Assembly: GCF_003443535.1 (NCBI RefSeq)
Contig: NZ_CP031946.1
Location: forward strand, 868,001 to 932,000
Source: Ruegeria sp. AD91A
Lineage (GTDB): Bacteria > Pseudomonadota > Alphaproteobacteria > Rhodobacterales > Rhodobacteraceae
Length of the DNA: 64,000 nt
Reading direction: 5' to 3'
How positions within the stretch are numbered: the first letter of the stretch is position 1; every line of letters starts with the position of its first letter. The notes beneath the pieces were generated by a model. That model had not been told where the DNA came from and ran no database searches. It saw only the letters and a list, made by a program, of their open reading frames with translations. A program made the translations under genes and the position numbers. Positions 39,991 to 55,897 of the stretch are shown here, piece after piece.

Positions 39991-40065
39991 TGGCTCCGGC
40001 GGTAGGGATCGAACCTACGACCAATTGATTAACAGTCAACTGCTCTACCGCTGAGCTACGCCGGA
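39991..40065 (-). tRNA. tRNA-Asn (anticodon GUU), first copy
   Basis: The reverse strand folds as a 75-nt tRNA, with acceptor TCCGGCG pairing to CGCCGGA, D-arm GTAGCTCAGCGGTAGAGC, anticodon loop CTGTTAA with GTT, T-arm TAGGTTCGATCCCTA and an encoded CCA. It is intact and lies 124 bp left of the element, so it was not the insertion target. It contains the same 3' sequence as the attachment core. Confidence 0.97.
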
Positions 40066-40355: not shown

Positions 40356-41570
40356 ATGGACCGAATGTTGCAGAAACTGTTGCAGAGCCTCGATATGCCC
40401 AATTACGCCAATTTACGATCACGCCCAAAGATTCAATCGATCAAACCATCGACTTGTGACACGATCTTCTATCGTCATGATGGCGACGCCCTTCAGGGAT
40501 TGCGCCTTGCTGTCGGCGCGCAGGCCAAGACATGGGTCATGTCGAAACGCATCAATGGTAAGGTTCGGTCGATAACTCTTGGACGCTGGCCGGAACTTGC
40601 TAATGGCGACGCTGCGATGGAGTTAGCCCGCGATAAAATCGCCGCACTCGAAGCCGGAACTGACGCCGCGACCACAAGCGTCGTCACCCTCTTGGACGCC
40701 TTCGAGTCTCACGTCTTGCGTTCATCGGCAAAACCGGAAACCACGGACAATTATCGAATGCAGATCAAGAACCATTTGTCTGATCTGTTTTCCATGCCAA
40801 TTGAGAAAATCACTCTGCCGATCCTTGAAGACGCCATCAAAGGCAAAACCCCTTCAACCGCACTACACCTTGCTCAGATCATCAGAATGGCTTTTCGGCG
40901 TGCTGCAACCTTGCGGCGCTGTTTCGATGTATCCGCCGACCTCAAGGTCATGGAAAGGCACAAACCTGCCAGTCACGTACTGTTCGACCCCAAAGATACT
41001 TGGCCTGCGCTGGATTTGATTTTGGCAAAGCGAAGCCTGATCCATCGGACTGCATGGCTGACAATGCTGTTCACCGGCTTTCGGTCGTTGAATACCCGCA
41101 CGCTGACATGGGATCAAATTGATCTGGTCCGCAAGACCATTACGCTAACCGAAATGAAGAACGGCCTGACCCGCACATTCCCCATAGCAGACGTGCTGAT
41201 TGAGGCGCTGATGCGCCTTCCGTATCGAGAGGGGTATGTGTTCCCAGCGGAGTCCAGCACCGGGCATATCCATCAGCTCATGGCGTTAAAAGTCGCCATT
41301 AGCGAAAACCCAGAGACCGCTGAAGTCAAAGTGTTGCGGCAGCATGATTGCCGCCGTCTGTTCACAACCGCCGCCCGGCGCGCTCGGCTGCCGGAATACA
41401 TCATTGATGAACTTCGTGGTGACACGCCCAAAAGCGTTCAAGACATCTACGACCAAGGTTCGGCCAATCATGAGGACGCAAACAAGATCGCCATGAGCAT
41501 CATCATGGAATGTGGTTTAACACCTGATACTGTTGTTGAGCAGATCAAGACCCCTGACTATATTGGTTGA
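40356..41570 (+). CDS. int: Tyrosine-type site-specific integrase
   Basis: A 404-residue recombinase. The N-terminal part includes an arm-binding-like segment (RINGKVRSITLGRWPELANG), a SAM-like core-binding domain from about 110 to 195 follows, and the catalytic domain is last. Catalytic residues read as Arg243 (LFTGFRSLNTRTLTW), Lys268 (EMKNG), His330-x-x-Arg333 (RQHDCRRLF) and Tyr365 (VQDIYDQG). The usual second His, of LxGH, is Asp here (LRGDTP), which is seen in some members but is unusual. Location beside attL and the tRNA core supports a role in integration at tRNA-Asn. Confidence 0.95.
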   Translation: MDRMLQKLLQSLDMPNYANLRSRPKIQSIKPSTCDTIFYRHDGDALQGLRLAVGAQAKTWVMSKRINGKVRSITLGRWPELANGDAAMELARDKIAALEAGTDAATTSVVTLLDAFESHVLRSSAKPETTDNYRMQIKNHLSDLFSMPIEKITLPILEDAIKGKTPSTALHLAQIIRMAFRRAATLRRCFDVSADLKVMERHKPASHVLFDPKDTWPALDLILAKRSLIHRTAWLTMLFTGFRSLNTRTLTWDQIDLVRKTITLTEMKNGLTRTFPIADVLIEALMRLPYREGYVFPAESSTGHIHQLMALKVAISENPETAEVKVLRQHDCRRLFTTAARRARLPEYIIDELRGDTPKSVQDIYDQGSANHEDANKIAMSIIMECGLTPDTVVEQIKTPDYIG

Positions 41571-42095: not shown

Positions 42096-44432
42096 ATGAA
42101 AAATGAACTATTAAATGCTGGCTATCGGTTGATACCGCTGCTGGATAAACAAAAACGCCCTAGGGACAATAACTGGGGCCGAAACACATACAGCTTGGAC
42201 GATCTCGAACAGCAAATTGGTCTCGTGATCGAGCCCGGTATGGTCGACATCGATCTCGATTGGCCTGAAATGCGGTCGATAATGTCGGAGGGCAATTTTG
42301 ACACGCTTGTCTGGGGTCGCCATGGGAAGGCTACGCATTTTGTCTACAGGTGTGCAATCGATGCCCCGGTGACCTTCAATTTGCCTAACGTGGCCGGTGC
42401 GCCAACACTTCAAGGCGATCATGCATATACGGTCTGCGAAGTGCGCACATCCGCAGCAGGCGAAGCATACCAGGCGATGATCCCCGGCAGCGTGCATCCT
42501 GATGGCGATCAGTTGGAATGGCTTGATCAGCGCATGCCTGTTGAGGCTGATCCCGAAGCCCTTTTACGGTTTGTGGGATTGTACGCCGGTGTCAGTGTTT
42601 TGGCTCGTTTTTATCCGGGCGAGGGCATGCGAGATGACTTCGCGCTTGCGCTGACTGGGTGCATGGTTCGGGCTGGATGGTCTGAGGAAAATGTCACCAA
42701 CTTCATGACCTACTTGTGCCGTTTGACGGGCGACAACGAGATCAAGATGCGGGCGTCAAAGGCGCAGCGTACGCTCAAACGCCTTGAGGCGGGGCGCAAG
42801 GTTGCAGGCATTCCGAAGGCAGCTGAGATCATGGGCATTCCGATTGAATGGATGCAGGAAGTTGCCGTTTGGCTCGGTTGGAAGAAACGCAATCCCAAAG
42901 GGACGGGTTCGGCGGTGTTTTTGTCGGCGCAAGTGGCAGAAGTTTCAAAACAGGCATGGGATGCGCTGACTGAGTACCGTGTTGATGGCGATCCCGGCGT
43001 ATACGCCTACGGAGAGGCGTTAGCACGCGTGGACGACGGGCGGATGCAATTGCTTGATGGTTCGGGCCTGAAGTTCGAGTTGAACCGATGCACCACATGG
43101 CTCGCAAGGGATGACAAAAAGTGGAAGCCGGTTTCAGCTCCCGCCAATGTTGTCGAGGACATGCTGGCAGCACGCCGCCGTGACGTGACGGTGCCGACGC
43201 TCAAGCAGGTATCCATTGTTCCGACTTTCACGCGGGATGGTCGGCTTCTGAACGAAAATGGGTTCGATGAAGGCTCGGGCATTTTCCTCGATCTCCAAGT
43301 GTCGGTCGATGTTCCCGTTGAACCGACGAAGCAACAGGTCTGGGCCGCGCTCCGGCAGTTGTGGACGCCGATTTCGCAATTTCCGTTTGAGGACAAGTCG
43401 GACAAGGTGCACGCCGTCGCCATGATGTTGGAGCCGTACATGCGGGATATGTTCGGACCGACACCGCTTTACTTCATCAACAAGCCAGCGGCAGGCACGG
43501 GCGCGTCATTATTCATCGAAACGTCGCTTTATCCAACGCTTGGAAGGTGGCCTGATGCACAAACACCGCCGCGTTCAGACGACGAGATGAAGAAAACGCT
43601 GACCGCCTGTTTCATCGATGGCATCCGGTGCATCTACTTTGATAACGCTAATATCTTGAACTCGGCATCGTTCGCCTCGGTCCTTACGGCTGAGGTTTAT
43701 GCAGCGCGGATTTTGGGCGTGTCGAAGATGCTCCGTGTTCCTGTGCAGGTTCAATGGGTCGGCTCGGGCAACAACTCAGAATTGTCTGGTGAGTTGTATC
43801 GGCGCACGGTGGATATCCGCATGGACGCGAAGATGGCGAACCCGGAAGATCGGGACGTTGCGAAATTCCGCATCAAGGACCTGAAGTCGTGGGTGCAGGA
43901 ACACCAGCCAGAGCAGGTTCGTGCGGCTTTGACGATCATTCAGTATTGGGTGAACCAAGGAATGCCCGCGGGCAAGGGATCGAAGGCATCGTTTGAGGCA
44001 TGGTCGGCCAAAATGTCGGGATTGTTCGACAGCATTGGCGTCGGTGGATTTCTTGAAACGCCCACGGAACGTCGGCCAGAAGATCCAGAGGAAGAAATTG
44101 CACGTGAAGTCTTCATCGCCATGGACAAGGCACACCGGGGCCGGGTTGATCCTTCGGGTGAGCAGGATGGTTATGGCAATTCGACACGTCGCACGGATTG
44201 GTCGAAGCCAGTACGGGCGGGCGATGTCGTTGATCTTGTCAATGCTCTCAACATCGATGTCGACTTCGGGTTCAAGGATGAGCGGAAGGTAATGGCGACG
44301 TTCCTGAAGCGCTATCGCGGGCGCGTCTTCGTCTTTGAGGCAGATACGGGCAGGAACATCGCTCTTACGTTGACGATGCGGACAGACAGCCGTGGGACGT
44401 ATTGGTTCGTTGAGCGCGGTATCGCTGATTGA
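42096..44432 (+). CDS. Primase-polymerase/helicase-like replication protein
   Basis: A 778-residue protein started at the ATG at 42096, which follows AGGAGA by seven bases (an earlier ATG at 42045 lacks one). The N-terminal region has a prim-pol (archaeo-eukaryotic primase) look: MVDIDLDWPEM supplies an Asp-x-Asp pair (Asp51, Asp53) and WGRHGKATHFVYR a nucleotide-binding His. The C-terminal half resembles a superfamily 3-type helicase, with FINKPAAGTGASLFIE where Walker A should be and YFDNANILNS as a Walker B-like site. The P-loop lacks the Lys-Ser/Thr end. The gene matches the pri-rep position of phage satellites. Confidence 0.75.
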   Translation: MKNELLNAGYRLIPLLDKQKRPRDNNWGRNTYSLDDLEQQIGLVIEPGMVDIDLDWPEMRSIMSEGNFDTLVWGRHGKATHFVYRCAIDAPVTFNLPNVAGAPTLQGDHAYTVCEVRTSAAGEAYQAMIPGSVHPDGDQLEWLDQRMPVEADPEALLRFVGLYAGVSVLARFYPGEGMRDDFALALTGCMVRAGWSEENVTNFMTYLCRLTGDNEIKMRASKAQRTLKRLEAGRKVAGIPKAAEIMGIPIEWMQEVAVWLGWKKRNPKGTGSAVFLSAQVAEVSKQAWDALTEYRVDGDPGVYAYGEALARVDDGRMQLLDGSGLKFELNRCTTWLARDDKKWKPVSAPANVVEDMLAARRRDVTVPTLKQVSIVPTFTRDGRLLNENGFDEGSGIFLDLQVSVDVPVEPTKQQVWAALRQLWTPISQFPFEDKSDKVHAVAMMLEPYMRDMFGPTPLYFINKPAAGTGASLFIETSLYPTLGRWPDAQTPPRSDDEMKKTLTACFIDGIRCIYFDNANILNSASFASVLTAEVYAARILGVSKMLRVPVQVQWVGSGNNSELSGELYRRTVDIRMDAKMANPEDRDVAKFRIKDLKSWVQEHQPEQVRAALTIIQYWVNQGMPAGKGSKASFEAWSAKMSGLFDSIGVGGFLETPTERRPEDPEEEIAREVFIAMDKAHRGRVDPSGEQDGYGNSTRRTDWSKPVRAGDVVDLVNALNIDVDFGFKDERKVMATFLKRYRGRVFVFEADTGRNIALTLTMRTDSRGTYWFVERGIAD

Positions 44433-44669
44433 TGGTGCAAACGGTGCAGGCATGGTGCAGGGGGATATTGCTTGGATATCAATCCAGTGACACCATTTGC
44501 ACCGTCGCCACCATCACTTCAAAGCATGTTGTAGCGTTGATGCATTTGGCAACGTCTCCACAAATTGCGCTATTGCATGAAAATGACGGTGCAAATGGTG
44601 CACATGGTGTTAGACGATTGAAACACTTGCGAAAACCGTTGCACCATGTGGGCACCATCGCCACCATGG
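44431..44669. repeat. GGTGCA repeat cluster, candidate replication origin
   Basis: At least ten GGTGC/GCACC-type units occur in 240 bases. They include three direct copies of GGTGCA at 44434-44459, a perfect 16-bp inverted pair CACCATTTGCACCGTC (44491-44506) and GACGGTGCAAATGGTG (44585-44600), a neighbouring TGGTGCACATGGTG, and GCACC units at 44641-44667 in reverse. The array starts at the primase stop codon and contains no gene. Position and structure resemble an iteron-type origin bound by the adjacent replication protein. Confidence 0.6.
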
Positions 44670-44678
44670 CGATATGTT

Positions 44679-45437
44679 TTACGGCTTCGCTCCCTTGATC
44701 TCAGAGCGGATTTTTTTTGCCAACTCTTTCATCTTCGCAGCGTTATTTTCGTACAGTTGAACAAGAACATGTGCAAATATTTCCATCGCTCCGAAATAAT
44801 GTTTCTCGCGCACGGTCTCACCGTGCGAGCCAAGATTTCCAACCTCTTTTAGAGCGAAGCAGAGTTCCGCAAATTCCTTTTCCCTTTGTGACCAGATCTC
44901 CAATCGTCGATGAAGCGATACGGGCACGGTTTTGCCCTTCTTATTTTTTTGCGTGTCAGGCACTTGCAGCTCGTCCAAAAGTGCTTCCAAGCTGGCGCGT
45001 AGTGCGTTGGCGGCGGCTGACACATCAACCCAGTACAAGGCGAAGCTCTTCTCAAGAAGAGAGCTTACTTCGGATGGCACATCGTCCGGAATCCTGACTA
45101 TTTCGGGTGCTGGAAAAAATGATTGGATACGAAAGCTGTCATAATACTCAGTATCATAGTCTTCGGCATATCTCTGGTCCACGCCTCCCGAGCCGGAAAC
45201 ATGGGCGATTTCCCCACAGCTTTTTCGATCACAAACGCAGATGAATGTGAATCGGTAGTCGATCCAGTGGGGATCCCACTCCTCGTGTCCATGTGCCGAT
45301 TTTGAAAAAGGTGGCTCGTTAACCGTAAAACTGGCTTGGTCCGGAACTAATGACCCTTTCTTACAAGTCGGGCAGACATACTTTGAGTAAGGCTTGTCAG
45401 CGAAGTGTTTCGATACTCGATTAACTGTGGATGACAC
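44679..45437 (-). CDS. DUF4145-domain protein
   Basis: A 252-residue protein with a GTG start at 45437 preceded by AAGGG. The N-terminal part has paired cysteines (YVCPTCKKGSL and CVCDRKSCGE), likely a zinc ribbon. The C-terminal helical part, with VSAAANALRASLEALLDELQ, SLHRRLEIW and ALKEVGNLGSHGE, matches DUF4145, a HEPN-like fold often fused to or near restriction and defence genes. No catalytic R-x4-6-H is obvious. It is on the opposite strand from the island replication and packaging genes, together with GIY-YIG and Mrr genes. Confidence 0.8.
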   Translation of the reverse strand: MSSTVNRVSKHFADKPYSKYVCPTCKKGSLVPDQASFTVNEPPFSKSAHGHEEWDPHWIDYRFTFICVCDRKSCGEIAHVSGSGGVDQRYAEDYDTEYYDSFRIQSFFPAPEIVRIPDDVPSEVSSLLEKSFALYWVDVSAAANALRASLEALLDELQVPDTQKNKKGKTVPVSLHRRLEIWSQREKEFAELCFALKEVGNLGSHGETVREKHYFGAMEIFAHVLVQLYENNAAKMKELAKKIRSEIKGAKP

Positions 45438-45716
45438 TGATCAACCCTTTTCTGGTGCCGGAATATGAACCAATTTACCGTATTGTTGATCGGGTACACG
45501 ATGAAAAGCAATGAGCACGATGCTTTTGCTGTCCTGATTCAACCCAGAAATCTCCGCCCACTGGCAAAGATATGGCCTTTGGTGGGCAAAATTTGCCAGA
45601 CCAATTGATCGGTAATCAAAGCATGCCTAGGGCTAACCGATTCTTTAGAAAGTGGATTGTTGGTGGCAACGTTGCAGAACTTGTATGCTCTGCGACAAAC
45701 GGCAGAATTCGCGCAC
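45438..45716. other. Interval without a recognised gene
   Basis: These 279 bases separate the DUF4145 and GIY-YIG genes on the reverse strand. I see no convincing coding region, hairpin terminator or repeat; it is long enough to hold the DUF4145 promoter. Confidence 0.3.
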
Positions 45717-46589
45717 TTAATTGCTGTTTAAACCCAGTGATCGCGTTTGCAGTCGCTTCTTCCAGCTGTCCTCAAGTTTCACGACGTCTTCCGCCTCCAT
45801 GTCAGGCGATACTCGTTGCAGTATTGAAAAAACGAACCCGTTTGGATCGCGCTCTCTCAATTGTCGGTTTCCGCCGTGCCCGGTTTTCGCATATCCTGTC
45901 CAGCGACCAAGAAGGTTTTCCTTGCCGTATGCTGAGCCGACATATGCTTTGCCGTCACTGTTGTCTGTGATCAGATAGATGCCGCGCCATTCTGCCAAAG
46001 CACTGCGCCACGGGGCTGGCAAGCTGCTGAGTTCCCTCCAAGACAATATCAACTCCCGCCATTCTGGCATGTCTTCAGAAAAGGAACTTGTTTCCAAAAT
46101 GGAAGCGATAGGGAAATCGTTACGATGCGCCCAGCGATACCAAGATCGTTCCAGACCGGTCCATGTGATGACGAGACGGCCTTGGAGGTCGAGAAGTGTT
46201 TCGGATCGATCCAGATTAAACCAAAAAGCGGATGACCGGAGTGAGGCACTGCTCATACCTTGCTTATGCAATTCCGCATTTTCCGGAATGGCGGAGTATT
46301 CTTCTGTGGTAACGGAACGGTATCCACACTGCTGATAAAGCCCGACAAAATGTGCCTTTCCGGGCTCAATTCCAATGAAAGAGGCAAGAAAGGAGGCGCG
46401 TGTTAGGGCAGTTTCGGCGTTCTTTGAGCCCTGCGCACTCTGATAGGCGTTGAACGTCTCGGGTCTCTCGGCAGCATACCAAGGCAATACCCGCCGAAGG
46501 CCCGATTCCGTGGGCCGATGTCTCATGACCAAGGTTTGATTCGGGTCAATATCGGCCTTCTTGAGAAGATCATTGAGTTCAAGCATCAC
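45717..46589 (-). CDS. GIY-YIG nuclease-domain protein
   Basis: A 290-residue protein. The C-terminal third is a GIY-YIG endonuclease domain: WRGIYLITDNSDGKAYVGSA has GIY at 203-205 and YVG at 216-218. Arg229 is in LLGRWTGYAKTGHGG, and a metal-binding Glu candidate lies in EDVVKLEDSWKKRL. The N-terminal 200 residues are of unknown family, with FVGLYQQCGYRSVTTEEYSA and RSAFWFNLDRSETLLDLQGR-like stretches. It follows Mrr by three bases, so the two are probably one transcript. Start may be GTG at 46589 or ATG at 46586. Confidence 0.85.
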   Translation of the reverse strand: MMLELNDLLKKADIDPNQTLVMRHRPTESGLRRVLPWYAAERPETFNAYQSAQGSKNAETALTRASFLASFIGIEPGKAHFVGLYQQCGYRSVTTEEYSAIPENAELHKQGMSSASLRSSAFWFNLDRSETLLDLQGRLVITWTGLERSWYRWAHRNDFPIASILETSSFSEDMPEWRELILSWRELSSLPAPWRSALAEWRGIYLITDNSDGKAYVGSAYGKENLLGRWTGYAKTGHGGNRQLRERDPNGFVFSILQRVSPDMEAEDVVKLEDSWKKRLQTRSLGLNSN

Positions 46590-46592
46590 TTA

Positions 46593-47513
46593 TTAGTCGT
46601 CCGCTTCATCGAAGTAGTTTTCGTCGATCTGTTTGATATGCAGCACGTCTTTGTCGCGGCACCCAATGTTGTACTTAATCATCAGCTTCGCCAACTGAGG
46701 CCCGTCAATTAGTACGATCCGTGAACCCAAGTCACGCGCCGTTTGCTCTGCAGAATTTGTGAAATGTGACGTGGTAACGAAAATACCCTTGGTGGCCTTT
46801 TTGATACTCAAAGCGCCATAAAAATCCCGAATATCGCCGGATCCCACGCTATTACCGGCAGCGTAGCGCTTCGCTTGAAGATAAATCTGGTCGACGCCAA
46901 GTGGGTCTTGATCAATAACGCCATCGACTCCGTTGTCTCCTGACTGCCCCAGTGCTCGACCAGCATTCTGGGAGGTGCCGCCGTAGCCCATAGCAATCAA
47001 AAGATCGACAATTAGGACCTCGAAAAAAAGCGGCGATGCGGTACGCACATAGTCGAGGAGGTTTGCGGCCAGCGCGGCCTCTAGCCTTTTGTGGGCCGCT
47101 TGAAGGTTTTCGTCGGGAGTGTTCGCGGGCGCTACGGTTTCAGGCCCATCAGTTGATGCTTCGTCGTTCGCCTTTCCGCGAGACTTAAACTCCTGAAACT
47201 CGTCAAATTGCTCAAGGTATTTGGAATCTAGCTGAATCGTGGGGTCATCCAGAACAGTGCGACCTCTCTCTGTGAGCTCAAACCAACCACGCTTGATGTT
47301 TCGTACCAAACCGGCCTGCTTCATATAGGACCGCGCCCAATGAATACGGTTCGCTATCGTGGATTGTTTTCCGCTGGGCAGGAGCTGTTGGCGTTCTTCT
47401 TCCGTCAAACCGAGCCGATCAGAAATTTCCTCTACGACATCGGAGATTTTTCGCGGTTCCCCTTTCGCGCACTCAAGTACTGGGCGCATTAATGATTGGT
47501 AATCAGGGATCAT
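46593..47513 (-). CDS. Mrr-type restriction endonuclease
   Basis: A 306-residue protein with an N-terminal winged-helix Mrr_N domain (about 1-95, including RKISDVVEEISDRLGLTEEE and GWFELTERGRTVL) and a C-terminal PD-(D/E)xK domain (about 150-275). Catalytic residues read as Glu165, Asp197 in SGDNGVDGVIDQDPLG, and Gln213-x-Lys215 in IYLQAKRY. Mrr-like enzymes are type IV nucleases that cut modified or foreign DNA. It leads the reverse-strand cargo block and is divergent from the packaging genes. In an element encoding its own Dam, the target modification is an open question. Confidence 0.92.
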   Translation of the reverse strand: MIPDYQSLMRPVLECAKGEPRKISDVVEEISDRLGLTEEERQQLLPSGKQSTIANRIHWARSYMKQAGLVRNIKRGWFELTERGRTVLDDPTIQLDSKYLEQFDEFQEFKSRGKANDEASTDGPETVAPANTPDENLQAAHKRLEAALAANLLDYVRTASPLFFEVLIVDLLIAMGYGGTSQNAGRALGQSGDNGVDGVIDQDPLGVDQIYLQAKRYAAGNSVGSGDIRDFYGALSIKKATKGIFVTTSHFTNSAEQTARDLGSRIVLIDGPQLAKLMIKYNIGCRDKDVLHIKQIDENYFDEADD

Positions 47514-47587
47514 GTCGGCTTGCCTAAAAAGTTGTTGTTTGCCCGGATCATAGATCGTTGGGCCGGAACCTTGAACCTATATGTTTT

Positions 47588-47616
47588 TCGGTACCTAAAT
47601 TGGTCTGTCGGTACCT
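47588..47616. promoter_or_regulatory. Paired TCGGTACCT sites, candidate operator
   Basis: Two identical nine-base units at 47588-47596 and 47608-47616 are 20 bp apart (two helical turns), each centred on palindromic GGTACC. They lie in the 242-bp gap between the divergent Mrr and packaging operons. A dimeric repressor controlling both directions would fit. Confidence 0.4.
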
Positions 47617-47755
47617 TATTCTTCCGGTCGGATATCCACCTGTTGGGCATTACATTCAATCCGAGCAACGCCGACGCATCGCTCCTATCTGTCCTATCCA
47701 GATGAGCGCGGCGTCCCAAGGCGTCGCGTTCGTTATTGGACAGAAAGGATCGAAG

Positions 47756-48397
47756 ATGTCCGACCAAACAGAGGCTGCCCTGCAAGCCCTAATCAAGCAG
47801 GTTGATACGCTCACCACCACTGTCACAGATCAGCAAGAGCGGATGGACGGCCTCCACGAACACAATGCTCGTCTGCTTGATCAGATCAAGGACGAAAAGC
47901 GCGCGCAACCGCCCGCCAAGAAGTCCATCGTGGACGTAGTGAATGAGCAAGAACACGAGCGAAAAATGCGCGCAGCCAACTTCGAGAAGGATGCAAACGG
48001 CGACTGGTACCTGAAGGGCCACCGCCCAAAGCATGCCATCTCGCGTATCGATGCCCGCGACCCCGTCAAGTACCGTGAAGCCAAGGCAGCGGCGGAAAAG
48101 AATGGGGCGACACTCTCGGTCATCGACGAAAGCGATGGCGATCCCACGATCCGCAATGCCGGCCAATCCGCTGTGATCCAGTCAAGGACGTTCACCTTTG
48201 ATGATACCCATGACGGCATCCGGTACGTCAGAGCAGACATGCATACGGGCAGCGGGATTGTTCAGCGCCAGCTTGCAGCCGAACGGGAGGGGCTCAAGGT
48301 GCGTACTTTTCGCACACCCGATGATCTGCCCCAGCACGCCCGGACCAAATTCGAATTGATGGAACGCGCGGCCAACGCTGACTCAGGCAAGGCCTGA
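47756..48397 (+). CDS. Unknown protein upstream of TerS, coiled-coil N terminus
   Basis: A 213-residue protein of unrecognised family. AAAGGA precedes the ATG at 47756; a longer frame back to 47702 is possible. Residues 5-60 are heptad-like (ALQALIKQVDTLTTTVTDQQ, ERMDGLHEHNARLLDQIKDE). Later parts are charged and soluble, including VKYREAKAAAEKNGATLSVI and TFDDTHDGIRYVRADMHTGS. It is two bases upstream of the TerS-like gene, so a role in packaging, DNA binding or scaffold function is only suggested by position. Confidence 0.75.
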   Translation: MSDQTEAALQALIKQVDTLTTTVTDQQERMDGLHEHNARLLDQIKDEKRAQPPAKKSIVDVVNEQEHERKMRAANFEKDANGDWYLKGHRPKHAISRIDARDPVKYREAKAAAEKNGATLSVIDESDGDPTIRNAGQSAVIQSRTFTFDDTHDGIRYVRADMHTGSGIVQRQLAAEREGLKVRTFRTPDDLPQHARTKFELMERAANADSGKA

Positions 48398-48399
48398 CT

Positions 48400-48972
48400 A
48401 TGCGCGGGGGGAATAAAAACTCGGGGCGGCGCGCTATCATCGATATGCGCCCAGACAAAAACGAGATCATCAGGGATATCGTGCTTGAGCGGCGGAGCCT
48501 AACTGAGATCGCCAAACGGTTAGGCGTCGATTTCTCAACGGTCCAGCGGTATCGGGACGACAAGATCACCGAAGAAATGCGCCGTGAAATTCTGGCACAT
48601 GAGCGCATCCAAGGCATCGAGGCGGATACCGCGATTATCAATCAAGATCGGCTGGACATCGCAATGACATACGAGTCCTTGGCGAAACGGGTGGAACGGC
48701 TAATTACCAAGGCGGAGCAAAACGAAGACGACTCATTCGCGCTGGCTGCGATGGAGGGGTTACGTCGTGTCTTGCGTGATATTGCCCAAGTTCAGGGTAA
48801 ACTCGCCACCAGCCTGAACGTCAACGTCTCGCTGTCTGAAAGCAAGGAATGGGTCACGCTACGCCAGATATTGGCCGAGGTTTGCGCTGAGGTTCCGGCC
48901 ACCCGCGAACCGCTTCTGCGCCGGATGCGACACCATGTGCTGTCTGTAACGAAGGAGGGCACAGTCTTATGA
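48400..48972 (+). CDS. terS: Terminase small subunit-like protein
   Basis: A 190-residue protein with an N-terminal helix-turn-helix (SLTEIAKRLGVDFSTVQRYR) followed by long helices (ILAHERIQGIEADTAIINQD, AAMEGLRRVLRDIAQVQGKL). This is the plan of small terminase subunits: DNA recognition at pac/cos followed by an oligomerisation helix. The assignment is mainly from this shape and from its place two genes before a clear terminase ATPase. Its stop overlaps the next start in an ATGA. A non-packaging regulator is the alternative. Confidence 0.65.
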   Translation: MRGGNKNSGRRAIIDMRPDKNEIIRDIVLERRSLTEIAKRLGVDFSTVQRYRDDKITEEMRREILAHERIQGIEADTAIINQDRLDIAMTYESLAKRVERLITKAEQNEDDSFALAAMEGLRRVLRDIAQVQGKLATSLNVNVSLSESKEWVTLRQILAEVCAEVPATREPLLRRMRHHVLSVTKEGTVL

Positions 48973-49214
48973 CACGCCACACAAAATTCCTGGGCTGGGA
49001 TCACTATGCAAAACTTGCCTCCGCCCGTTCAAAAGTAGCAGCGCAGGCTGGACATCCTGAATGGACCGAATTGCCCTCCACACGCCGCCAAGCAGAAGAT
49101 CAAGGCAAAAAAGTGTATTTCACGGGCCTTGAGTGCAAGCACGGGCATGTCACGCCGCGCGGCATCAATAAAGGGTGCGCGGGCTGCTACACGGCGAGAT
49201 ATCATGCCGTTTGA
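48969..49214 (+). CDS. Small zinc-ribbon protein between TerS and TerL
   Basis: An 81-residue protein. The C terminus ECKHGHVTPRGINKGCAGCY has a CxHGH plus CxxC arrangement like the zinc knuckle found in phage HNH and endonuclease VII-type proteins, but no nuclease H-N-H set follows because the protein ends there. It is translationally coupled at both ends, overlapping TerS by four bases and the TerL ATPase gene by eleven. It may be a DNA-binding packaging accessory. Confidence 0.7.
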   Translation: MTRHTKFLGWDHYAKLASARSKVAAQAGHPEWTELPSTRRQAEDQGKKVYFTGLECKHGHVTPRGINKGCAGCYTARYHAV

Positions 49215-49989
49215 CGCCCTCCATGACTGGTGCAGCCTCGTTGAACGTGATCTCGATGTAGGCGCTGAAATGCTGCACTTCCTGCGGCAAGAAGTGCCGA
49301 ATGCGCAGTCTGTGGACCCGTGGCAGTTGGAAGCGGTAACATCCGTTGCGTCTACAGTGGCAATGCGTGTCTGCCGTCAGGCAGGAAAATCCTGCGTATT
49401 GGCGACGCGAGGGGTGCGCGAACTTAAGCGCGGCGGCACGACTATTTGCCTTGCGCCTGCCGAGCGTCAAACCCGGGAAATCACTCGCAAAGTATCGCTC
49501 TATCTACGTGCGACCGATCTTGTGATCGAACGCGCAACTCAATCCGAAATCGAAACCTCAAACGGCGGGCGGTTCATCGCTGTGCCCGCTTCAGGCGCGA
49601 CGATCCGGGGATATACTGCGGATTTGATCATGGTTGACGAGATGGCCTATCTGCCGGGCCACAATGGCGGCGAAGACATCGTTGTCGCGCTGCTACCTAT
49701 GCTCAAGGACAACGGCCAGACGTTCTACGCGTCCACACCTGCTGGGCGGTTCAACATGTTCGCAGAGCTGTTCAGAGAACCGCGTGAAGGCGTTCACCGC
49801 ATCGTTGTGCCTGGGACATCGATACCCCGCCTCTCTGCCCGCGTAGAACGCCTGCGCGCCCAGTTATCGGCCACACGCTTCCGGCAAGAAGTTGAAGTCG
49901 AAATGCTGGCCGATGGTTTGGCCTATTTTGATCTGGCGATCATCGAGAATGCCACCAGTCAGGAGGGCGCAATATGTCCACGGATTTGA
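49204..49989 (+). CDS. terL: Terminase large subunit, ATPase half
   Basis: A 261-residue packaging-motor ATPase. The adenine/Walker region WQLEAVTSVASTVAMRVCRQ followed by AGKS holds the P-loop, and ADLIMVDEMAYLPG holds Walker B with the catalytic Glu. The coupling motif is FYASTPAGRFNMF. The protein stops at 49989, immediately after the ATRFRQEVEVEMLADGLAYF linker that normally connects to the nuclease. The nuclease half is a separate gene in the -1 frame. An in-frame extension upstream to 49129 overlaps the zinc-ribbon gene and was not used. Confidence 0.88.
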   Translation: MPFDALHDWCSLVERDLDVGAEMLHFLRQEVPNAQSVDPWQLEAVTSVASTVAMRVCRQAGKSCVLATRGVRELKRGGTTICLAPAERQTREITRKVSLYLRATDLVIERATQSEIETSNGGRFIAVPASGATIRGYTADLIMVDEMAYLPGHNGGEDIVVALLPMLKDNGQTFYASTPAGRFNMFAELFREPREGVHRIVVPGTSIPRLSARVERLRAQLSATRFRQEVEVEMLADGLAYFDLAIIENATSQEGAICPRI

Positions 49990-50690
49990 ACTTAATCTAC
50001 ATGCCCAATGGCGACGTGGTGAATGAGACCAACCAAGACCCAGCGATCCCGCGCGTGACTGGTTACGTTCGATACTGGATCGGTGCGGATTTGGGGCAGG
50101 CGAACGACTATTCTGCTGTCTGCGTGATCAAAGATCAGGCGTTGCCGACGAGTGATGGCAATGGGATTGTTGTTGGCCCCCGCGAACGCACGGTTGTGTA
50201 CGCGGACAAATTCAAAGGCGTGTCTTACGTGGATGTGGTCGACTACCTGATCAAGCTGCGCAACGCGTCGCCATTCGGCGGCAAATCTGAACTTGTGATC
50301 GACGGTACATCTATTGGCCGCGTCGTCTCAGATATGCTCTGGGATCAAGGCGTGGATCACAACGCCGTGCAGATGACCGGCGGGCAAGAGTGGCGGCGAA
50401 GCGGACGGTACGTGAACGCCAGTAAAACTCTGATGATCGAAAACCTTGCCGTGTTGTTCGCAGCAGGCGAACTCAATTTTGCCCGCGATCTGCTGCTACG
50501 CAAAGAGATCGAAGAAGATCTGGCCTCGTTCACAACGCAGACCACTGCCGCAGGAAATCAGATCATTACGCAGTCGCGGAACGCTTCTGGTCACGGGGAT
50601 CTGGGCGTCGGTCTGATTGTTGCTGGGTTCGCTTCCCATTACCTTAAACCGCAGACGATCCTCGTCGAGCAACTACGCGGCTGGTTCTGA
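49974..50690 (+). CDS. Terminase large subunit, nuclease half
   Basis: A 238-residue protein resembling the C-terminal RNase H-like nuclease of TerL. YWIGADLGQANDYSAVCVIK supplies the first metal-binding Asp. ELVIDGTSIGRVVSDMLWDQ supplies the second, and NASGHGDLGVGLIVAGFASH near the end gives the third (D in HGDL). A perfect AGGAGG at 49961-49966 lies seven bases before its ATG and within the ATPase gene. It is therefore translated independently, and the split is not likely to be a sequencing artefact. The overlap with the ATPase gene is 16 bp. Confidence 0.85.
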   Translation: MSTDLNLIYMPNGDVVNETNQDPAIPRVTGYVRYWIGADLGQANDYSAVCVIKDQALPTSDGNGIVVGPRERTVVYADKFKGVSYVDVVDYLIKLRNASPFGGKSELVIDGTSIGRVVSDMLWDQGVDHNAVQMTGGQEWRRSGRYVNASKTLMIENLAVLFAAGELNFARDLLLRKEIEEDLASFTTQTTAAGNQIITQSRNASGHGDLGVGLIVAGFASHYLKPQTILVEQLRGWF

Positions 50691-50842
50691 AGTCGAGAAG
50701 GAGTTTGATACGGTTGTTATCCATGGTGCAACGCCTAGCCTGCGAACAACGCCATTATGAGGCGCTGACCAGATTAAGGTTGAGACCGCTGCGACTTGTG
50801 AGGTACGCTAAGGCACGGGCGTAAGATAACAAAGGCAGGACA

Positions 50843-51634
50843 TTGAAGCCGTTTATTAAATGGGCTGGTGGGAAGCGCTGGCTGTTAGACAGCCAGCAGA
50901 TCAAACTGCCAAATTTTGATGGTAAATATATCGAGCCATTCCTCGGTGGAGGAGCGGTATTTTTCCAATTGGCACCGCAGTCAGCAATACTATCTGATGT
51001 GAATCCCAAACTCATTAATACGTATCGTGCAGTGCGGACCAATTGGCAATTGGTCCATAAAGAGCTGAAAAGAATGCAGGCGTTGCACTGTAAAGATTTC
51101 TATTATGAGGAGCGCGCTCGGCAACGCCGGACTAAACACACAAGGGCCGCGCAATTTCTTTATCTGAACCGGACTTGTTGGAACGGTCTTTATCGGGAAA
51201 ACCTTTCAGGAAAATTCAATGTGCCAATCGGCACTAAAACTCAAGTTCTGCTGCCTGATGATGATTTTGAAGGTGCGAGCAAAGTACTTAAAAGAGCTGA
51301 GTTGCGGACAGGCGATTTCGAAGAGACCCTGTTGGATGCGAACAAGGGCGACCTTGTTTTTCTAGACCCGCCTTATACTACGGCGCATAATACAAACGGC
51401 TTTGTTAAGTATAATCAGAAGATCTTTAGCTGGGACGATCAAATACGGTTGCGGCGTTGTGCTGAAGCGGCTTACCGGCGAGGAGCAAGAGTGGTTCTCA
51501 CAAATGCAGACCATAAGACAGTACACGAACTCTACTCCGACATGGGTGAACCCAAGATTGTTTCCCGGAGCTCTGTGATTTCTGGAAATTCCACTGCTCG
51601 AGGGAAGACGACTGAGGTCGTTTACATTTTTTAA
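50843..51634 (+). CDS. dam: Dam-like DNA adenine-N6 methyltransferase
   Basis: A 263-residue D12-class methyltransferase. The SAM motif FIKWAGGKRWLL is at residues 4-15, EPFLGGGAVFFQL follows, the substrate region is FLYLNRTCWNGLYRENLSGK, and catalytic DPPY is at 175-178 in LVFLDPPYTTAHN. It starts at TTG 50843 with AAAGG seven bases upstream. GATC is the expected target by family, but recognition cannot be read directly. It sits 14 bp before the DGQHR-fusion gene, so the two likely share a transcript and perhaps a restriction-modification-like purpose. Confidence 0.93.
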   Translation: MKPFIKWAGGKRWLLDSQQIKLPNFDGKYIEPFLGGGAVFFQLAPQSAILSDVNPKLINTYRAVRTNWQLVHKELKRMQALHCKDFYYEERARQRRTKHTRAAQFLYLNRTCWNGLYRENLSGKFNVPIGTKTQVLLPDDDFEGASKVLKRAELRTGDFEETLLDANKGDLVFLDPPYTTAHNTNGFVKYNQKIFSWDDQIRLRRCAEAAYRRGARVVLTNADHKTVHELYSDMGEPKIVSRSSVISGNSTARGKTTEVVYIF

Positions 51635-51648
51635 TAGGAGTTTTGGGT

Positions 51649-54000
51649 TTGTCATTTATGGATCCGGCAGAAGAACAATCACTACGCGACAAAATATCGA
51701 GTGATCCGTCGCATCTTGGACGCCTGTTCAAGGCGAAGTCTTCGAAATTCATTCTACGTAGTGTCGATCACGCGCTTGTTGAGGAGTTGCTGAAGGAAGG
51801 TTGGGAAGAATACGGGAAGCCACTCAAAACCAAAACACGGTTAAGAAAGCCCAAGACCCATGATGCACAGCTAGAGGATGATGTCTGGTGTCAGCTCTAT
51901 CGGCTTGGCTATCGATGCTTCAATGTTTCTGGCGACTTTGCGCTCCCCTTTGGGAAGGGAGCTACCGACAAAAAGCAAATAGATGTCATTGCCATCAATG
52001 ACGACAGTGTATTGTTGGTCGAATGCAAATCTGCAGAAAAATCCAAGAAACCGCCATCATTTAAGACAGAATTCGAGGCTCTAAAGCAACGAATGAATGG
52101 GCATGCCAAAGCACTTGAGCAGCTTTTCGGAAAAGAGCGGAAAATAAAGTATATTTTCGCCACTCGTAATTTGCGCATCGGTCGCGAAAGCGCCGATGGT
52201 GAGCGACTTTCTAAGGCCGGTGGGTTTCTATACAATGACAATGCTTATGATTATGTCGAAGGACTTCTGAAAGCGTATAAGAACGCAGCTCACTATCAGT
52301 TCATGGCTATGCTCTTTAAGGGGCAGGATATCAACAAAGAGAAGATTGAGGTCGCCGCGCTCGAAGGCAAGATGGGCGGCAAAACATATTACATGTTCTC
52401 TTTGGAGCCTGAGCTTTTGTTGAAGATGGGGTTTGTTTTGCATCGAACTCGGGCAAATGAGGCTGAGATGCCAACCTACCAACGTCTTCTCGTACCGAGC
52501 AGGCTCAAGGGAATAAACAAATTCATTGATGAAGGCGGTTTTTTTCCCAACTCAGTCATTCTCAATTTTTCCGAGTCAGCCCGAAAAATTGAGTTCCACG
52601 GGCAAAAACGCACTGGCGTTTCTCGTTCACGGTCTGGGACTTTGAAAATTCCTAACGCCTACGCCATCGCATACATCATCGACGGCCAGCACCGAATCTA
52701 TGGTTATGCAAATTCTGACTTTAAGAAGTCCAACACTATTCCAGTCGTGTCTTTTGTAGGCTTGGATCCGTCTGAGCAACTCGAAATGTTTATGGATATA
52801 AACGAAAATCAGAAGGCAGTAAGTCCAACGCTGCGCATTACACTTGAAGAAGACCTTTATTGGAATTCGGCGCGACTGGACTCACGAATGAAGGCACTAA
52901 GGTCCTCAGTTATTAGGCAACTTGGTGGCGACCCAACTGGTCCCTTATTTGGAAAGATTGCACTTGGCGAAGACAGGGCGCAGCTTAATGCGAAACCTTT
53001 CGCCGACTCTCTACTTCGTTGTGGGCTCCTTCCGGTCGCTAAGGGAAACAAGTTTGCCGGAGGGGAAATCAACACCTCACTCTACAACACTGGGAATCAA
53101 GACCATGTCAAAGAGATGCGGTCGACGCGGGCCAAAGTAGTTACATTGCTCAACGCATGCTATCAATTGGCTGAAGAACAGTTTGACGAGGATGAAGATA
53201 CGCTAAAGAGCTTCATAGTCTACAATCGTGGGACTTATGCGTTCATTAGCCTGATTGGCAGCATAAACTCGTTCCTAACAGAGCAAGGCAAACTTTCTTG
53301 TTCAACTTCGAACGATGAGCGTTTTGATGCTGTCAGGAAGTACTTGGTAGCACTGTGCGAGGCGCTGTCGAGCATTTCTGATGACGACAGAGGCATGCTT
53401 TTGGGAAAGTTGGGTTCCGGTGCTGAAAATACTTGGTTTCGTATGTTCCAAAGTTTCGTCAATAAACGGTTCTCAGAATATGAACCTGCCGATCTTTTGG
53501 ATTGGAAGGAACGTCAAAACAAAGAGCTTCAAGATGAGGGGCGAAGCCTTGGAACAGGCATCGAAAAGCACATCAAAAAGGTAATTATTGCCAACTTAAA
53601 GACGATTTTTGACAAAAACTGGGATCTGGAGATTGGAACAATTCAACGGGATTGCGAAGATCGGGCTAAGGCACAGATGGAGAAAAATTACAAAGAGGGT
53701 TTGGGTAGAACCGAAATCCCATGGACTGACCAATTTTTTATTAAGGATTACAAAACTATCATTGAGAAGTATTGGGGCCGTATGCCTGAGGGTGATGCGG
53801 ACGACTTTAAGACATTTGAGGAGCACTTTGCGCTCGACATTGGCCAAGGTTTTAATAGCAAAGCAGAGAAATTGAAGTGGCTCTCGATTTTCAATTCTTA
53901 TCGAAATACATGGGCTCACGAGGGCACAAAAGAGAAGGGGCTGAACCAGTCTGAAGTGAGCTTCCTTCGGGAGGTTCACGGCAAGCTCATGCCCCAATAG
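51649..54000 (+). CDS. Three-part defence-like protein: PD-(D/E)xK nuclease, DGQHR (DndB-like), HEPN-like C terminus
   Basis: A 783-residue protein. The TTG at 51649 is eight bases after AGGAG; TTG 51643 and ATG 51658 are alternatives. The N-terminal part (about 65-210) has a restriction-nuclease core: Glu in AQLEDDVW, Asp in QIDVIAINDD and ExK in VLLVECKSAEK. The middle contains IIDGQHRIYGY (Asp345-Arg349), the DGQHR signature of DndB/ParB-like proteins, with FMDINENQKAVSPTLR nearby. The last 30 residues have YRNTWAHEGTKEKG (Arg752, His757), an R-x4-H motif as in HEPN ribonucleases. I know of DGQHR proteins near DNA-modification genes. This combination and the Dam partner are not familiar to me. 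Function is inferred. Confidence 0.75.
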   Translation: MSFMDPAEEQSLRDKISSDPSHLGRLFKAKSSKFILRSVDHALVEELLKEGWEEYGKPLKTKTRLRKPKTHDAQLEDDVWCQLYRLGYRCFNVSGDFALPFGKGATDKKQIDVIAINDDSVLLVECKSAEKSKKPPSFKTEFEALKQRMNGHAKALEQLFGKERKIKYIFATRNLRIGRESADGERLSKAGGFLYNDNAYDYVEGLLKAYKNAAHYQFMAMLFKGQDINKEKIEVAALEGKMGGKTYYMFSLEPELLLKMGFVLHRTRANEAEMPTYQRLLVPSRLKGINKFIDEGGFFPNSVILNFSESARKIEFHGQKRTGVSRSRSGTLKIPNAYAIAYIIDGQHRIYGYANSDFKKSNTIPVVSFVGLDPSEQLEMFMDINENQKAVSPTLRITLEEDLYWNSARLDSRMKALRSSVIRQLGGDPTGPLFGKIALGEDRAQLNAKPFADSLLRCGLLPVAKGNKFAGGEINTSLYNTGNQDHVKEMRSTRAKVVTLLNACYQLAEEQFDEDEDTLKSFIVYNRGTYAFISLIGSINSFLTEQGKLSCSTSNDERFDAVRKYLVALCEALSSISDDDRGMLLGKLGSGAENTWFRMFQSFVNKRFSEYEPADLLDWKERQNKELQDEGRSLGTGIEKHIKKVIIANLKTIFDKNWDLEIGTIQRDCEDRAKAQMEKNYKEGLGRTEIPWTDQFFIKDYKTIIEKYWGRMPEGDADDFKTFEEHFALDIGQGFNSKAEKLKWLSIFNSYRNTWAHEGTKEKGLNQSEVSFLREVHGKLMPQ

Positions 54001-54131
54001 ACCTAACCAAGTTGCGATTTTTATCAGCCGAACCCAACTAATCGCTATCGCTCTATTAGTAGGGCTTCGGACGTGCCGGAGGCCTGCGGATTTCGACGGC
54101 ATAATGCAGTAGACCCGATCAAGCGAATTCT

Positions 54132-54161
54132 AAGGAGCGTTTAAACGCTCTCCTTTGTTTT
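54132..54161 (+). terminator. Terminator downstream of the DGQHR-fusion gene
   Basis: AGGAGCG and CGCTCTCCT form a stem with one bulged T around a TTTAAA loop, followed by TTGTTTTC. It lies 130 bases after the stop and probably ends the dam-fusion transcript. Confidence 0.6.
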
Positions 54162-54258
54162 CAGCTACTTAGTCGTTGACCTGACCCAGGATCGGTGGTA
54201 TCTAAGTCCCTGCAGACGCAAGTTGCTTTCACGCATCTGCATATCAACGGAGAAAAAC

Positions 54259-54309
54259 ATGACTGAAATTCTGCCGCTCGCGCGGTCGAACGAGGTTGGG
54301 CTCCGTTGA
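54259..54309 (+). CDS. Possible 16-residue leader peptide
   Basis: ATG at 54259 follows GGAGA, and the frame reads MTEILPLARSNEVGLR before TGA. It lies in the 367-base gap before the HNH gene. It may be a leader peptide for that gene or chance; no conservation can be assessed. Confidence 0.2.
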   Translation: MTEILPLARSNEVGLR

Positions 54310-54367
54310 TGGCAAGTGTCCTTCCTCTCACCACATAGCCATCGACGTCATGAGAGAAGGATTAAAC

Positions 54368-54736
54368 ATGACGAAGAAAAACAGCCACTCCCGCTACAGG
54401 GAGAAAAATAGAGTGCTACTTCGCGTCAAACAAGCAATGCGTAGGGCTGGCCCCGCTGCCCCGCCGTGGTTATCCGAAGAAGACAATGAGGAAATTCTCG
54501 CTGTTTATCGGGAAGCGCAGCAATGGACGGAAGAGACCGGAGTCGTTCACGAAGTCGATCATATGGTGCCATTGAACGCCACAAGCCGCGGTCAACACTA
54601 TCTTTGCGGTTTACATGTACCGTGGAATCTTCGCGCAATTCCTCAGTCTATGAACCAGAAGCGGGGCGACTGGTTCTTCACAGGAACACCGCCGATTGAT
54701 GTTCATGATGATGGCGACGATGACATACCATGGTGA
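54368..54736 (+). CDS. Phage-type HNH endonuclease-like protein
   Basis: A 122-residue protein. The core EVDHMVPLNATSRGQHYLCG, then LHVPWNLRAIPQSMNQKRGD, matches the phage HNH pattern VDHxVPL...CGLHxPWNLxxxP...N.K. His61/His65, Asn88 and Asn96 are candidate active-site and metal residues. I selected the ATG at 54368, which follows AAGGA; a start at 54350 is possible. HNH proteins near terminases often assist cos cleavage during packaging, but this one is separated from TerL by the Dam and DGQHR genes, so its role is open. Confidence 0.8.
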   Translation: MTKKNSHSRYREKNRVLLRVKQAMRRAGPAAPPWLSEEDNEEILAVYREAQQWTEETGVVHEVDHMVPLNATSRGQHYLCGLHVPWNLRAIPQSMNQKRGDWFFTGTPPIDVHDDGDDDIPW

Positions 54737-54780
54737 TGTCCGAGCAAATCGCAACGTTGCAGAGATGTTGCAGAAAACAA

Positions 54781-54802
54781 AAGCCGCCCCTAGGGGCGGC
54801 TT
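54781..54802. terminator. Perfect palindromic terminator between HNH and tRNA-Asn
   Basis: The 22-bp sequence is a perfect palindrome with arms AAGCCGCCCC and GGGGCGGCTT around TA. It can act in both directions. The reverse strand has the better U-tract (TTTTGTTTTC), so it probably ends the tRNA-Asn transcript; on the forward strand it can end the HNH gene. Confidence 0.75.
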
Positions 54803-54829
54803 GTTACTCTCTTGTTATCCAAGAGAGAT

Positions 54830-54876
54830 TTTGGCTCCGGCGGTAGGGATCGAACCTACGACCAATTGATTAACAG
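54830..54876. repeat. Right attachment site (attR)
   Basis: This copy of the 47-bp core is identical to 40190-40236 and supplies the 3' part of the complete tRNA-Asn. The flanking base differs on both sides, so the core is exactly 47 bp. The element thus brought its own tRNA 3' end and kept the host gene intact. Confidence 0.93.
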
Positions 54877-54906
54877 TCAACTGCTCTACCGCTGAGCTAC
54901 GCCGGA
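54832..54906 (-). tRNA. tRNA-Asn (anticodon GUU), second copy, restored by the element
   Basis: Identical over its 75 nt, CCA included, to the copy at 39991-40065. Its 3' 45 bases are derived from the element's attachment core and its 5' part from the host. Confidence 0.97.
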
Positions 54907-54915
54907 ACTGAGGCG

Positions 54916-54944
54916 CGTATAGCAACCCCGATTCCAGACGTCCA
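54916..54944 (-). promoter_or_regulatory. Promoter of the second tRNA-Asn gene
   Basis: TGGACG (54944-54939) and TATACG (54921-54916) on the reverse strand are 17 bases apart, as in the first tRNA-Asn gene, while the bases between them differ. The shared boxes point to a real promoter. Confidence 0.6.
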
Positions 54945-54982
54945 GTGGTTAAGTAAGAGAACGATCAAAAATTTTTGCTGTT

Positions 54983-55897
54983 TTAGAGAAACCGTCGAAA
55001 AACAGATGCAACCGACAGTGGGCCAATGGGCGCCACTTTGGTTTTCCCAGTCAGATCAACGAGATGAGCGAAAACATTTCGCTCGGCCGCTGGCAACAAT
55101 GCTGCTGGCGTATCCGTATAGATGCGCTCAGCCAGATGCCGAGCTGTCCCGTCTGCATCTTCCAACGCGCTCAGGATCTGGGCCTCGCGGGTCTGGCGAT
55201 GCGCAATCAGCCAGTCCAAGCGTTCGGCAGGACTGGTGATCGGTGCACCATGGCCCGCGTGGAAAACCGACCAGTCGCGCGCGCGTAGCCGATGGCAGGC
55301 AGCCATGAAGTCGGTCAGATCACCATCCGGAGGGGACACCAACGAGCTGGCCCAACCCATGACATGATCCGCTGTGAAACAGATGTTCTGCCAGGCCAAG
55401 GCAATGTGATTACCCAGATGGCCCGGAGTGTGAATGACTTCGAGCTGCCATCCGTCACCATTGATGAACTCACCGTCCGCCACTTCGACATCCGGGCGAA
55501 ACGTGCTGTCGATTCCTTCGCCGCCGCCAGTCAGCCCCTGCGCGGCAAGATCGGTCATGACGGCGCTGCGTCCTGCCTCAGGCCCACCATAGGAATAAAT
55601 CACTGCCCCCGTGCGCGCCGCCAGCGGAGCCGCCAGAGGTGAATGGTCCACATGCGTATGTGTGACAATGATATGGCTGATCCTTTGACCCGGCGCCAAG
55701 GAATCCAGAATCGCGCCCAGATGTGCTTCGCTTGCTGGGCCTGGATCGATGACCGCGATGTCGCGATCACCCAGCAGGTATGTGTTGGTGCCACGATAAG
55801 TCATCGGAGAGGGATTCGGGGCCAGAATACGCCGCAAACCCAAGTGCAGTTCCTCGGGTTTTCCAACGGGTGGATTGAAATCATCTGGTGATGGCAT
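54983..55897 (-). CDS. Metallo-beta-lactamase fold hydrolase
   Basis: A 304-residue protein of the MBL superfamily. The metal-binding set is present: THTHVDHSPL (HxHxDH), HTPGHLGNHIAL, TADHVMGWASS and a C-terminal FHAGHGAPI. NTYLLGDRDIAVIDPGPASE opens the fold. A C-terminal helical region (LDWLIAHRQTREAQILSALE and onward) is like that of LACTB2-type nucleases or hydrolases. Its substrate is not clear and could be RNA, a thioester or a lactone. It is a core gene directly next to the tRNA insertion site. Confidence 0.9.
   Translation of the reverse strand: MPSPDDFNPPVGKPEELHLGLRRILAPNPSPMTYRGTNTYLLGDRDIAVIDPGPASEAHLGAILDSLAPGQRISHIIVTHTHVDHSPLAAPLAARTGAVIYSYGGPEAGRSAVMTDLAAQGLTGGGEGIDSTFRPDVEVADGEFINGDGWQLEVIHTPGHLGNHIALAWQNICFTADHVMGWASSLVSPPDGDLTDFMAACHRLRARDWSVFHAGHGAPITSPAERLDWLIAHRQTREAQILSALEDADGTARHLAERIYTDTPAALLPAAERNVFAHLVDLTGKTKVAPIGPLSVASVFRRFL

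Follow-up and report, generated by a model that had tools for sequence, protein, structure and literature searches.

A 64,000-nucleotide stretch of the Ruegeria sp. AD91A genome (contig NZ_CP031946.1, positions 868,001 to 932,000; here called the window) carries a same-strand pair of genes, one for a Dam-family adenine methyltransferase and one for a large multidomain protein, the effector, which the original prediction, made by a model from the sequence, had put forward as a candidate undescribed defence pair. Both open reading frames (ORFs) lie where they had been placed, and the TTG start at 51649, preceded by AGGAG, leaves the 14 bp from the Dam stop codon to the effector that had been described. 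The listed starts of relatives align with this TTG or with ATG 51658, and the residue numbers given earlier (E125/K127, D345 and R752/H757) fit the TTG start.

50843..51634, plus strand: Dam-family N6-adenine DNA methyltransferase, 263 aa, TTG start (TIGR00571; matches to DpnM and E. coli Dam)
51636..51640, plus strand: ribosome-binding site AGGAG, 8 nt before TTG 51649 (read in the sequence)
51649..54000, plus strand: 783-aa effector, predicted nuclease, DGQHR (ParB/Srx) and HEPN domains (ORF, relatives, AlphaFold2 model)
51859..52272, plus strand: predicted PD-(D/E)xK nuclease domain, residues 71-208, with D112, E125 and K127
52366..52815, plus strand: DGQHR domain, ParB/sulfiredoxin fold, residues 240-389, with DGQHR at 345-349
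53512..53997, plus strand: predicted HEPN domain, residues 622-783, with R752-x4-H757

The methyltransferase is a member of the Dam family, scoring 236 bits against TIGR00571 (cut-off 114.85) as the single match to that model in the genome, and it matches the structures of DpnM (2dpm, E 9.5e-52) and E. coli Dam (2g1p, E 1e-33). Its DPPY motif is invariant in 13 of 13 aligned sequences, as are the equivalents of E. coli Dam R124 and P134; the equivalent of L122 is L or I across the same set, and that of K9 is mostly K or R where present. We take these four positions to be the GATC-recognition residues of Dam, and with most of them kept the predicted target site is GATC.

The DGQHR domain of the effector scores above threshold (TIGR03187, 131 bits versus 58.85), and the pentapeptide is kept in 124 of 124 aligned relatives. 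By contrast, the nuclease and HEPN domains fall under the Pfam cut-offs on the single sequence (NERD 19.8 versus 22.1 bits and Hjc 17.8 versus 21.1 for the former; HEPN_Apea E 0.085 and HEPN_Swt1 E 0.45 for the latter), so that profile searches, proposed earlier as a check, recovered Dam and DGQHR but not these two, and family-level tests were needed. At E <= 0.05, 14 of 44 diverse family members match Pfam HEPN_Swt1 (best 1.9e-6; the window protein is not among them) and 14 of 44 match Card1_endonuc. Of the 124 aligned relatives, down to 23-28% identity, no fewer than 121 retain the catalytic residues of the nuclease, and likewise those of HEPN. All branch counts rest on 356 listed family proteins, among them that of the window, in branches I (120), II (116) and III (120); they come from homologue lists holding the best 120 of 3261, 1214 and 1651, which were drawn in turn from capped candidate sets. 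The HEPN R/H pair is kept in 120/120, 115/116 and 119/120 of these proteins, respectively. The AlphaFold2 model of the effector has a mean pLDDT of 90.5 and a pTM of 0.80; the modelled nuclease, DGQHR and HEPN domains match solved structures moderately, and they display a PD-(D/E)xK fold with D...ExK and a helical HEPN fold with R-x4-6-H. A sequence search of the PDB with the family profile returned one match, to myoglobin (E 0.49), which was judged to be chance. Conserved motifs, predicted models and moderate structure matches together thus point to an effector made of nuclease, DGQHR and HEPN domains, and this assignment holds. Each of the three domains had been named from motifs in the original prediction: the nuclease is borne out by family conservation and fold despite its low single-sequence scores, the DGQHR box by TIGR03187, and the C-terminal R-x4-H motif by its near-invariance, the HEPN_Swt1 matches and the fold. 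The lack of a nuclease or HEPN fold in a predicted structure, named there as a refutation, did not occur, since both folds were found.

The available parts of PMC10853773 and PMC12704722 describe DndB as regulating the dnd operon in an ATP-dependent manner, and the effector could by analogy be a DndB-like transcription factor for Dam whose nuclease and HEPN folds are relics. Given the retention of catalytic residues in both nuclease folds noted above, and a score against the DndB equivalog TIGR03233 of 20.1 bits (cut-off 328), this regulatory reading is very improbable.

We read 25 family loci with their surroundings. An adenine methylase gene adjoins the effector gene in 20 of them, an arrangement of methylase and predicted endonuclease genes side by side like that of Type II restriction-modification. 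Nineteen carry Dam (the window, L003-L007, L010-L012, L014, L015, L035, L038, L039, L046, L047 and L050-L052), and in L037 an MT-A70 adenine methylase (PF05063, 97.7 bits) replaces Dam beside an intact nuclease triad. The methylase comes first in most loci and the effector first in L012, L014, L015 and L050-L052; several pairs overlap by ORF coordinates. The pairs occur in Alphaproteobacteria, in an actinobacterium (L007) and on viral contigs. A two-gene unit is favoured by L007, where the pair is flanked by ABC1-kinase and dehydrogenase genes and the neighbours scanned with Pfam, to either side, are ordinary; L035 and L039 likewise each have one or more ordinary genes among the scanned neighbours. 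The last viral scan supplied 14 DGQHR-only loci as controls, some of them near-copies; none gave a Dam or MT-A70 BLAST match in its available flanks. That the two genes never co-occur elsewhere, the other stated route to refutation, is therefore not the case. Dam might still be an anti-restriction gene of a mobile element that sits beside the effector by chance; its adjacency in 19 of the 25 loci, in branches far apart and whichever gene comes first, the exchange for a different adenine methylase in L037 and the empty controls already disfavour this account, the most improbable of those weighed here.

The integrity of the nuclease follows the presence of the methylase. The D-E-K triad is intact in 19 of the 20 loci with a methylase and in none of the five that yielded no methylase (L016, L017, L034, L036 and L049); the five triads, pooled, read D-E-R, D-E-T, D-E-T, D-E-T and N-E-R, that of L016 being D-E-R. 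L049 came from a later scan, and its neighbours were read before its nuclease motif. BLAST with Dam queries was negative at all five loci, and at L049 with an MT-A70 query too; absence was also read from annotation (L016, L017), from Pfam on chosen neighbours (L034, L036) and from ORFs (L049), several L034 neighbours having no Pfam family, so that other methylase types or more distant genes are possible. The listed proteins show the same division, with the full triad in 116/120 of branch I, 108/116 of branch II and 0/120 of branch III, where K127 is T in 113 of 120; the neighbours of branch proteins are known only via the loci. The HEPN residues behave differently, being kept in 22 of the 24 loci whose effector still has its C-terminus (with losses in L010 and L011; L034 is truncated) and in all four such loci that lack a methylase. 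The domain tracked by the methylase is thus the nuclease and not the HEPN domain, which upholds the methylase as self-marker proposed in the original prediction and sharpens it. No report of such a coupling was seen in the papers searched.

A quick tree of 24 loci (L038 left out, nuclease motif columns excluded), built when earlier trees were already known, places L049 with L046 and L047, which have Dam and an intact triad, and away from branch III. Forcing the rows without a methylase into one group is rejected (p-AU 6e-6). At least two changes of partner are therefore needed, each with a change in the nuclease; the tree alone gives no direction of change.

Computation shows the domains with their conserved active-site residues, the pairing of the two genes in lineages far apart, and broken triads where no methylase was found. 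Together they are best explained, and probably correctly so, by a two-gene module resembling restriction-modification, in which Dam marks self and the effector attacks unmarked DNA. From this we infer that the effector cuts DNA, is gated by a nucleotide and acts as an RNase, that Dam is specific for GATC and that the pair protects against phage, along the following lines. The adenine methylase (Dam, predicted GATC) would keep resident DNA marked, and the PD-(D/E)xK domain would cut DNA that lacks the mark; if the methylase protects resident DNA from the nuclease, an active nuclease would be kept only as long as the methylase is present. The DGQHR/ParB-fold domain would bind a nucleotide and gate the effector, probably as a switch, since PMC12704722 (in the portion available) reports in-vitro binding of ATP and GTP by a DndB-like protein. 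The HEPN domain would act as an RNase, a second and probably growth-stopping arm when the DNA attack is triggered or fails. Since it stays when the nuclease goes, it should have a separate function, most probably the cutting of RNA, and, being AbiF-like, it may be switched by an RNA or nucleotide signal.

The same components could be wired the other way round, as in a modification-dependent or 'reverse' (Pgl-like) system, with the methylase marking invading DNA and the effector attacking what is marked. The DUF262 domain of GmrSD, an enzyme that depends on modification, is similar to DGQHR (in the part of PMC4619093 available), and one of the 44 family members weakly matches GmrSD_N. However, Dam would then mark the GATC sites of the cell as well, and a nuclease intact only beside a methylase fits protection, even if marking for attack is still compatible with it; we consider a reverse system rather improbable.

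Several observations weigh against a self-marking defence module. L015 has Dam, yet its E125 is Q, and the triad is broken in 4/120 branch I and 8/116 branch II listed proteins whose neighbours are not known. L010 and L011 lack the HEPN catalytic residues with nuclease triad and DGQHR kept, which means that HEPN is not always needed. The methylase switches number only two independent ones, so that, although Fisher's test of the coupling gives p 0.0013 (19 loci, kinship ignored), the sign test on independent contrasts, with a median p of 0.5, is below significance. L043, a DGQHR-only locus outside the control scan, has Dam 0.6 kb upstream. Foldseek alone found no match in the PDB at E <= 0.001 for either model, and the structural support comes from VIA-align second looks with mostly moderate Z values.

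All five methylase-less loci have a radical-SAM-like gene nearby, in these neighbourhoods:

L036:461-8162
L016:10344-18271
L017:4122-14510
L034:5635-8831
L049:8273-9508

The gene is annotated in L016 and L017, scores 20.2 bits against Pfam Radical_SAM in L036 (below the cut-off of 29.5), is likened by eye in L034, and in L049 is 40% identical to that of L036. L016 and L036 also carry HATPase_c_3 (GHKL-type by Pfam) and PIN_8 proteins, L017 carries an annotated ATP-binding protein and a PIN-like protein, and a second DGQHR-type gene (DGQHR/DCQHR) is present in L016, L017 and L036. The set of radical-SAM, ATP-binding, second DGQHR/DCQHR and PIN proteins is possibly a separate, unnamed conflict system; no paper that treats radical SAM, GHKL, HEPN and ParB together came up in the literature searched. 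Tentatively, and with slightly less confidence than an even call would deserve, the family may be seen as an unnamed defence class that joins in one chain a nuclease against DNA, a nucleotide switch of ParB fold and an RNase of HEPN type, the partner gene determining which of the two weapons is active: beside an adenine methylase (Dam or MT-A70) the DNA nuclease would be kept, and beside a radical-SAM partner, in at least two lineages, it would die and leave an RNA-only effector. If the proposals hold, a compact two-gene module would mount DNA and RNA attack from one protein, lineages with and without a methylase would form a natural experiment with opposite predictions on which domain is active, and DGQHR/ParB-fold proteins, often named after DndB, would gain a concrete role.

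In the window the pair is cargo of a 14.8-kb integrative element between two tRNA-Asn copies that share about 78 identical bp.

39991..40065, minus strand: tRNA-Asn, left edge of the element (about 78 bp identical to the second copy)
40356..41570, plus strand: tyrosine integrase of the element (Phage_integrase 5.3e-8, phrog_1 1.8e-26)
54832..54906, minus strand: tRNA-Asn, right edge of the element (flank comparison with same-genus genomes)

Besides the pair and the integrase, the element has genes for a Prim-Pol protein, UzuA- and Mrr-type proteins and a terminase-like protein. A phage satellite (PICI or P4-like) was considered for an element with integrase, Prim-Pol and terminase-like genes; it is not known to have a helper phage. 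The flanks match about 0.4 kb apart in four of nine same-genus genomes (G003, G005, G007 and G009), 1.5-1.6 kb apart in two, on different contigs in one, and 7.7 and 15.8 kb apart in G004 and G006, respectively, versus 15 kb here; the tRNA-Asn is thus a used insertion site, probably with other inserts in G004 and G006. Rfam at gathering scores found only the two tRNAs in 40000-55000, that is, no known regulatory RNA beside the AbiF-like HEPN domain, and promoter and terminator scans were at chance level. GATC is not avoided (observed/expected 1.09 in the element, 1.16 and 1.06 in the flanks, 0.90 in the pair), which is neutral for the proposed module. UzuA (GIY-YIG) and Mrr-type restriction genes stand side by side at 45717-47513. 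The terminase large subunit is present as two overlapping ORFs, 49129-49989 and 49974-50690, an ATPase half and a nuclease half that each match their own PHROG, consistent with a split gene or a frameshift; the second ORF had no close relative in viral contigs, the first not being searched.

Restriction-modification pairs can act as addiction or stabilisation modules, and the location of the window copy in an integrative element at a tRNA-Asn, together with copies on viral contigs, would suit a selfish pair that keeps the element by killing cells that lose the methylase, in place of phage defence. Against this stand the L007 copy between ordinary chromosomal genes and the retention of HEPN and DGQHR in branch III, where no methylase was found, which suggests a sensor-effector and not only an addiction toxin. 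We regard addiction as unlikely, albeit the most plausible of the alternatives, and as compatible with the self-marking defence module that we favour.

The loci were found in several scans: that of viral contigs with the single effector protein gave no relative, and those with alignments gave 4 and then 23 loci. Dropped from the set were the window's own genome (L001, L032, L040-L042), duplicates (L044, L045 and L048, equal to L010, L011 and L012; L066, equal to L013), short cuts of places covered by other loci (L008, L009, L020-L031, L033), L018 (a 224-residue C-terminal piece with no Dam match), L019 (pNL2, with no family member), L002/L043 (the DGQHR-only protein with Dam 0.6 kb upstream) and H5, H8 and H9 (by listing the same or sister plasmids). 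Retained among the 25 were the imperfect L010 (broken Dam), L015 (a 678-aa ORF), L034 (an in-frame stop) and L038 (interrupted effector), as well as the near-copies L046 and L047. P0129, P0130, P0142 and P0155 were left out of the 356-protein counts by length; P0155 (934 aa, both Pfam domains) had been considered as an effector-Dam fusion, and was rejected as its HEPN end seems, by eye, to be out of frame before Dam. The family is sparse, being present in 3 of 385 class genomes at E <= 1e-30 (window genome counted) and, at E <= 1e-60, in 6 of 397 genomes in the order of G421 (G421 counted), 2 of 398 phylum genomes and 1 of 371 in the window's order (the last two counting the window genome).

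Some loci show arrangements of separate interest. In L038:5864-12130 the effector gene is split by about 3 kb of other ORFs and the upstream Dam ORF is uninterrupted; in L010 Dam is broken into two ORFs. The viral contigs L046:9149-12049 and L047:10549-13792, which have the Dam pair, also carry a DGQHR-only gene, with an MT-A70-like methylase gene 1.1-1.3 kb from it. L043:5271-9317, in the same-genus genome G022, holds in a row a Dam gene, a gene for an apparently membrane-spanning protein of 210 aa, one for a DGQHR-only protein of 389 aa, and an integrase-like ORF, the membrane-spanning and integrase likenesses being judged by eye.

No published name was found for a nuclease-DGQHR-HEPN protein paired with Dam, in a search that lay outside most subscription papers, bioRxiv preprints and supplements. 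Yet the label 'undescribed' fits only in part. The pNL1 protein SARO_RS17535 (L016) is a branch III relative at a locus without an annotated methylase; our guess, which could not be confirmed, is that it equals Saro_3948, a gene looked for on plasmid pNL2 at 400-449 kb, where no DGQHR gene was found. A HEPN fusion was listed in 2013 as 'ParB (Saro_3948), mostly active' (Anantharaman et al. 2013, PMC3710099), and the available part of that survey reports that HEPN was fused independently with nucleases of the REase-fold, HNH, ParB-like and HKD kinds, with links to restriction-modification systems. These resemble the effector in joining HEPN to a ParB-fold domain or a REase-fold nuclease and in the idea of layered DNA and RNA attack, whereas no single REase-DGQHR-HEPN chain and no Dam partner is described in that part. 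Its Table 1 places MAE_28990 HEPN genes 'in operon with a ParB nuclease and DNA methylase genes', the same ingredients as separate genes, where here HEPN, ParB fold and nuclease form one chain.

DndB of Dnd and DpdB of Dpd have a DGQHR domain homologous to that of the effector, which nevertheless misses both equivalogs (DndB as given above; DpdB NF041060, 65 versus 300 bits), and no Dnd or Dpd component was matched among the other nine element proteins scanned. GmrSD (DUF262 plus HNH, type IV) likewise joins a ParB/Srx-fold domain to a nuclease, with DGQQR instead of DGQHR, a kinship drawn in PMC4619093; its nuclease is HNH and not PD-(D/E)xK, and the part of that article available mentions neither HEPN nor a partner methylase. 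Compared with PD-lambda-5 (PMC9519451, available in part), the effector has no hit at E <= 1 among the PD-Lambda-5 models, the presence of the other component's model in the library being unconfirmed, and for Dam the PD-Lambda-5_B models (1.1e-8 and 0.0044) are far outscored by several methylase models. PrrC with a type I system is a restriction-modification system with a suicide RNase, and shares the layers of methylase, DNA cutter and HEPN-type RNase; the present pair differs in having a single effector that includes a ParB-fold domain, and neither a helicase nor a specificity subunit was seen next to it. The PrrC-PrrI link is mentioned in PMC3506569 (in the portion available). The Ruegeria pair would thus be a restriction-modification variant with an RNase arm, in a field where fusions of HEPN with ParB and REase domains are already known.

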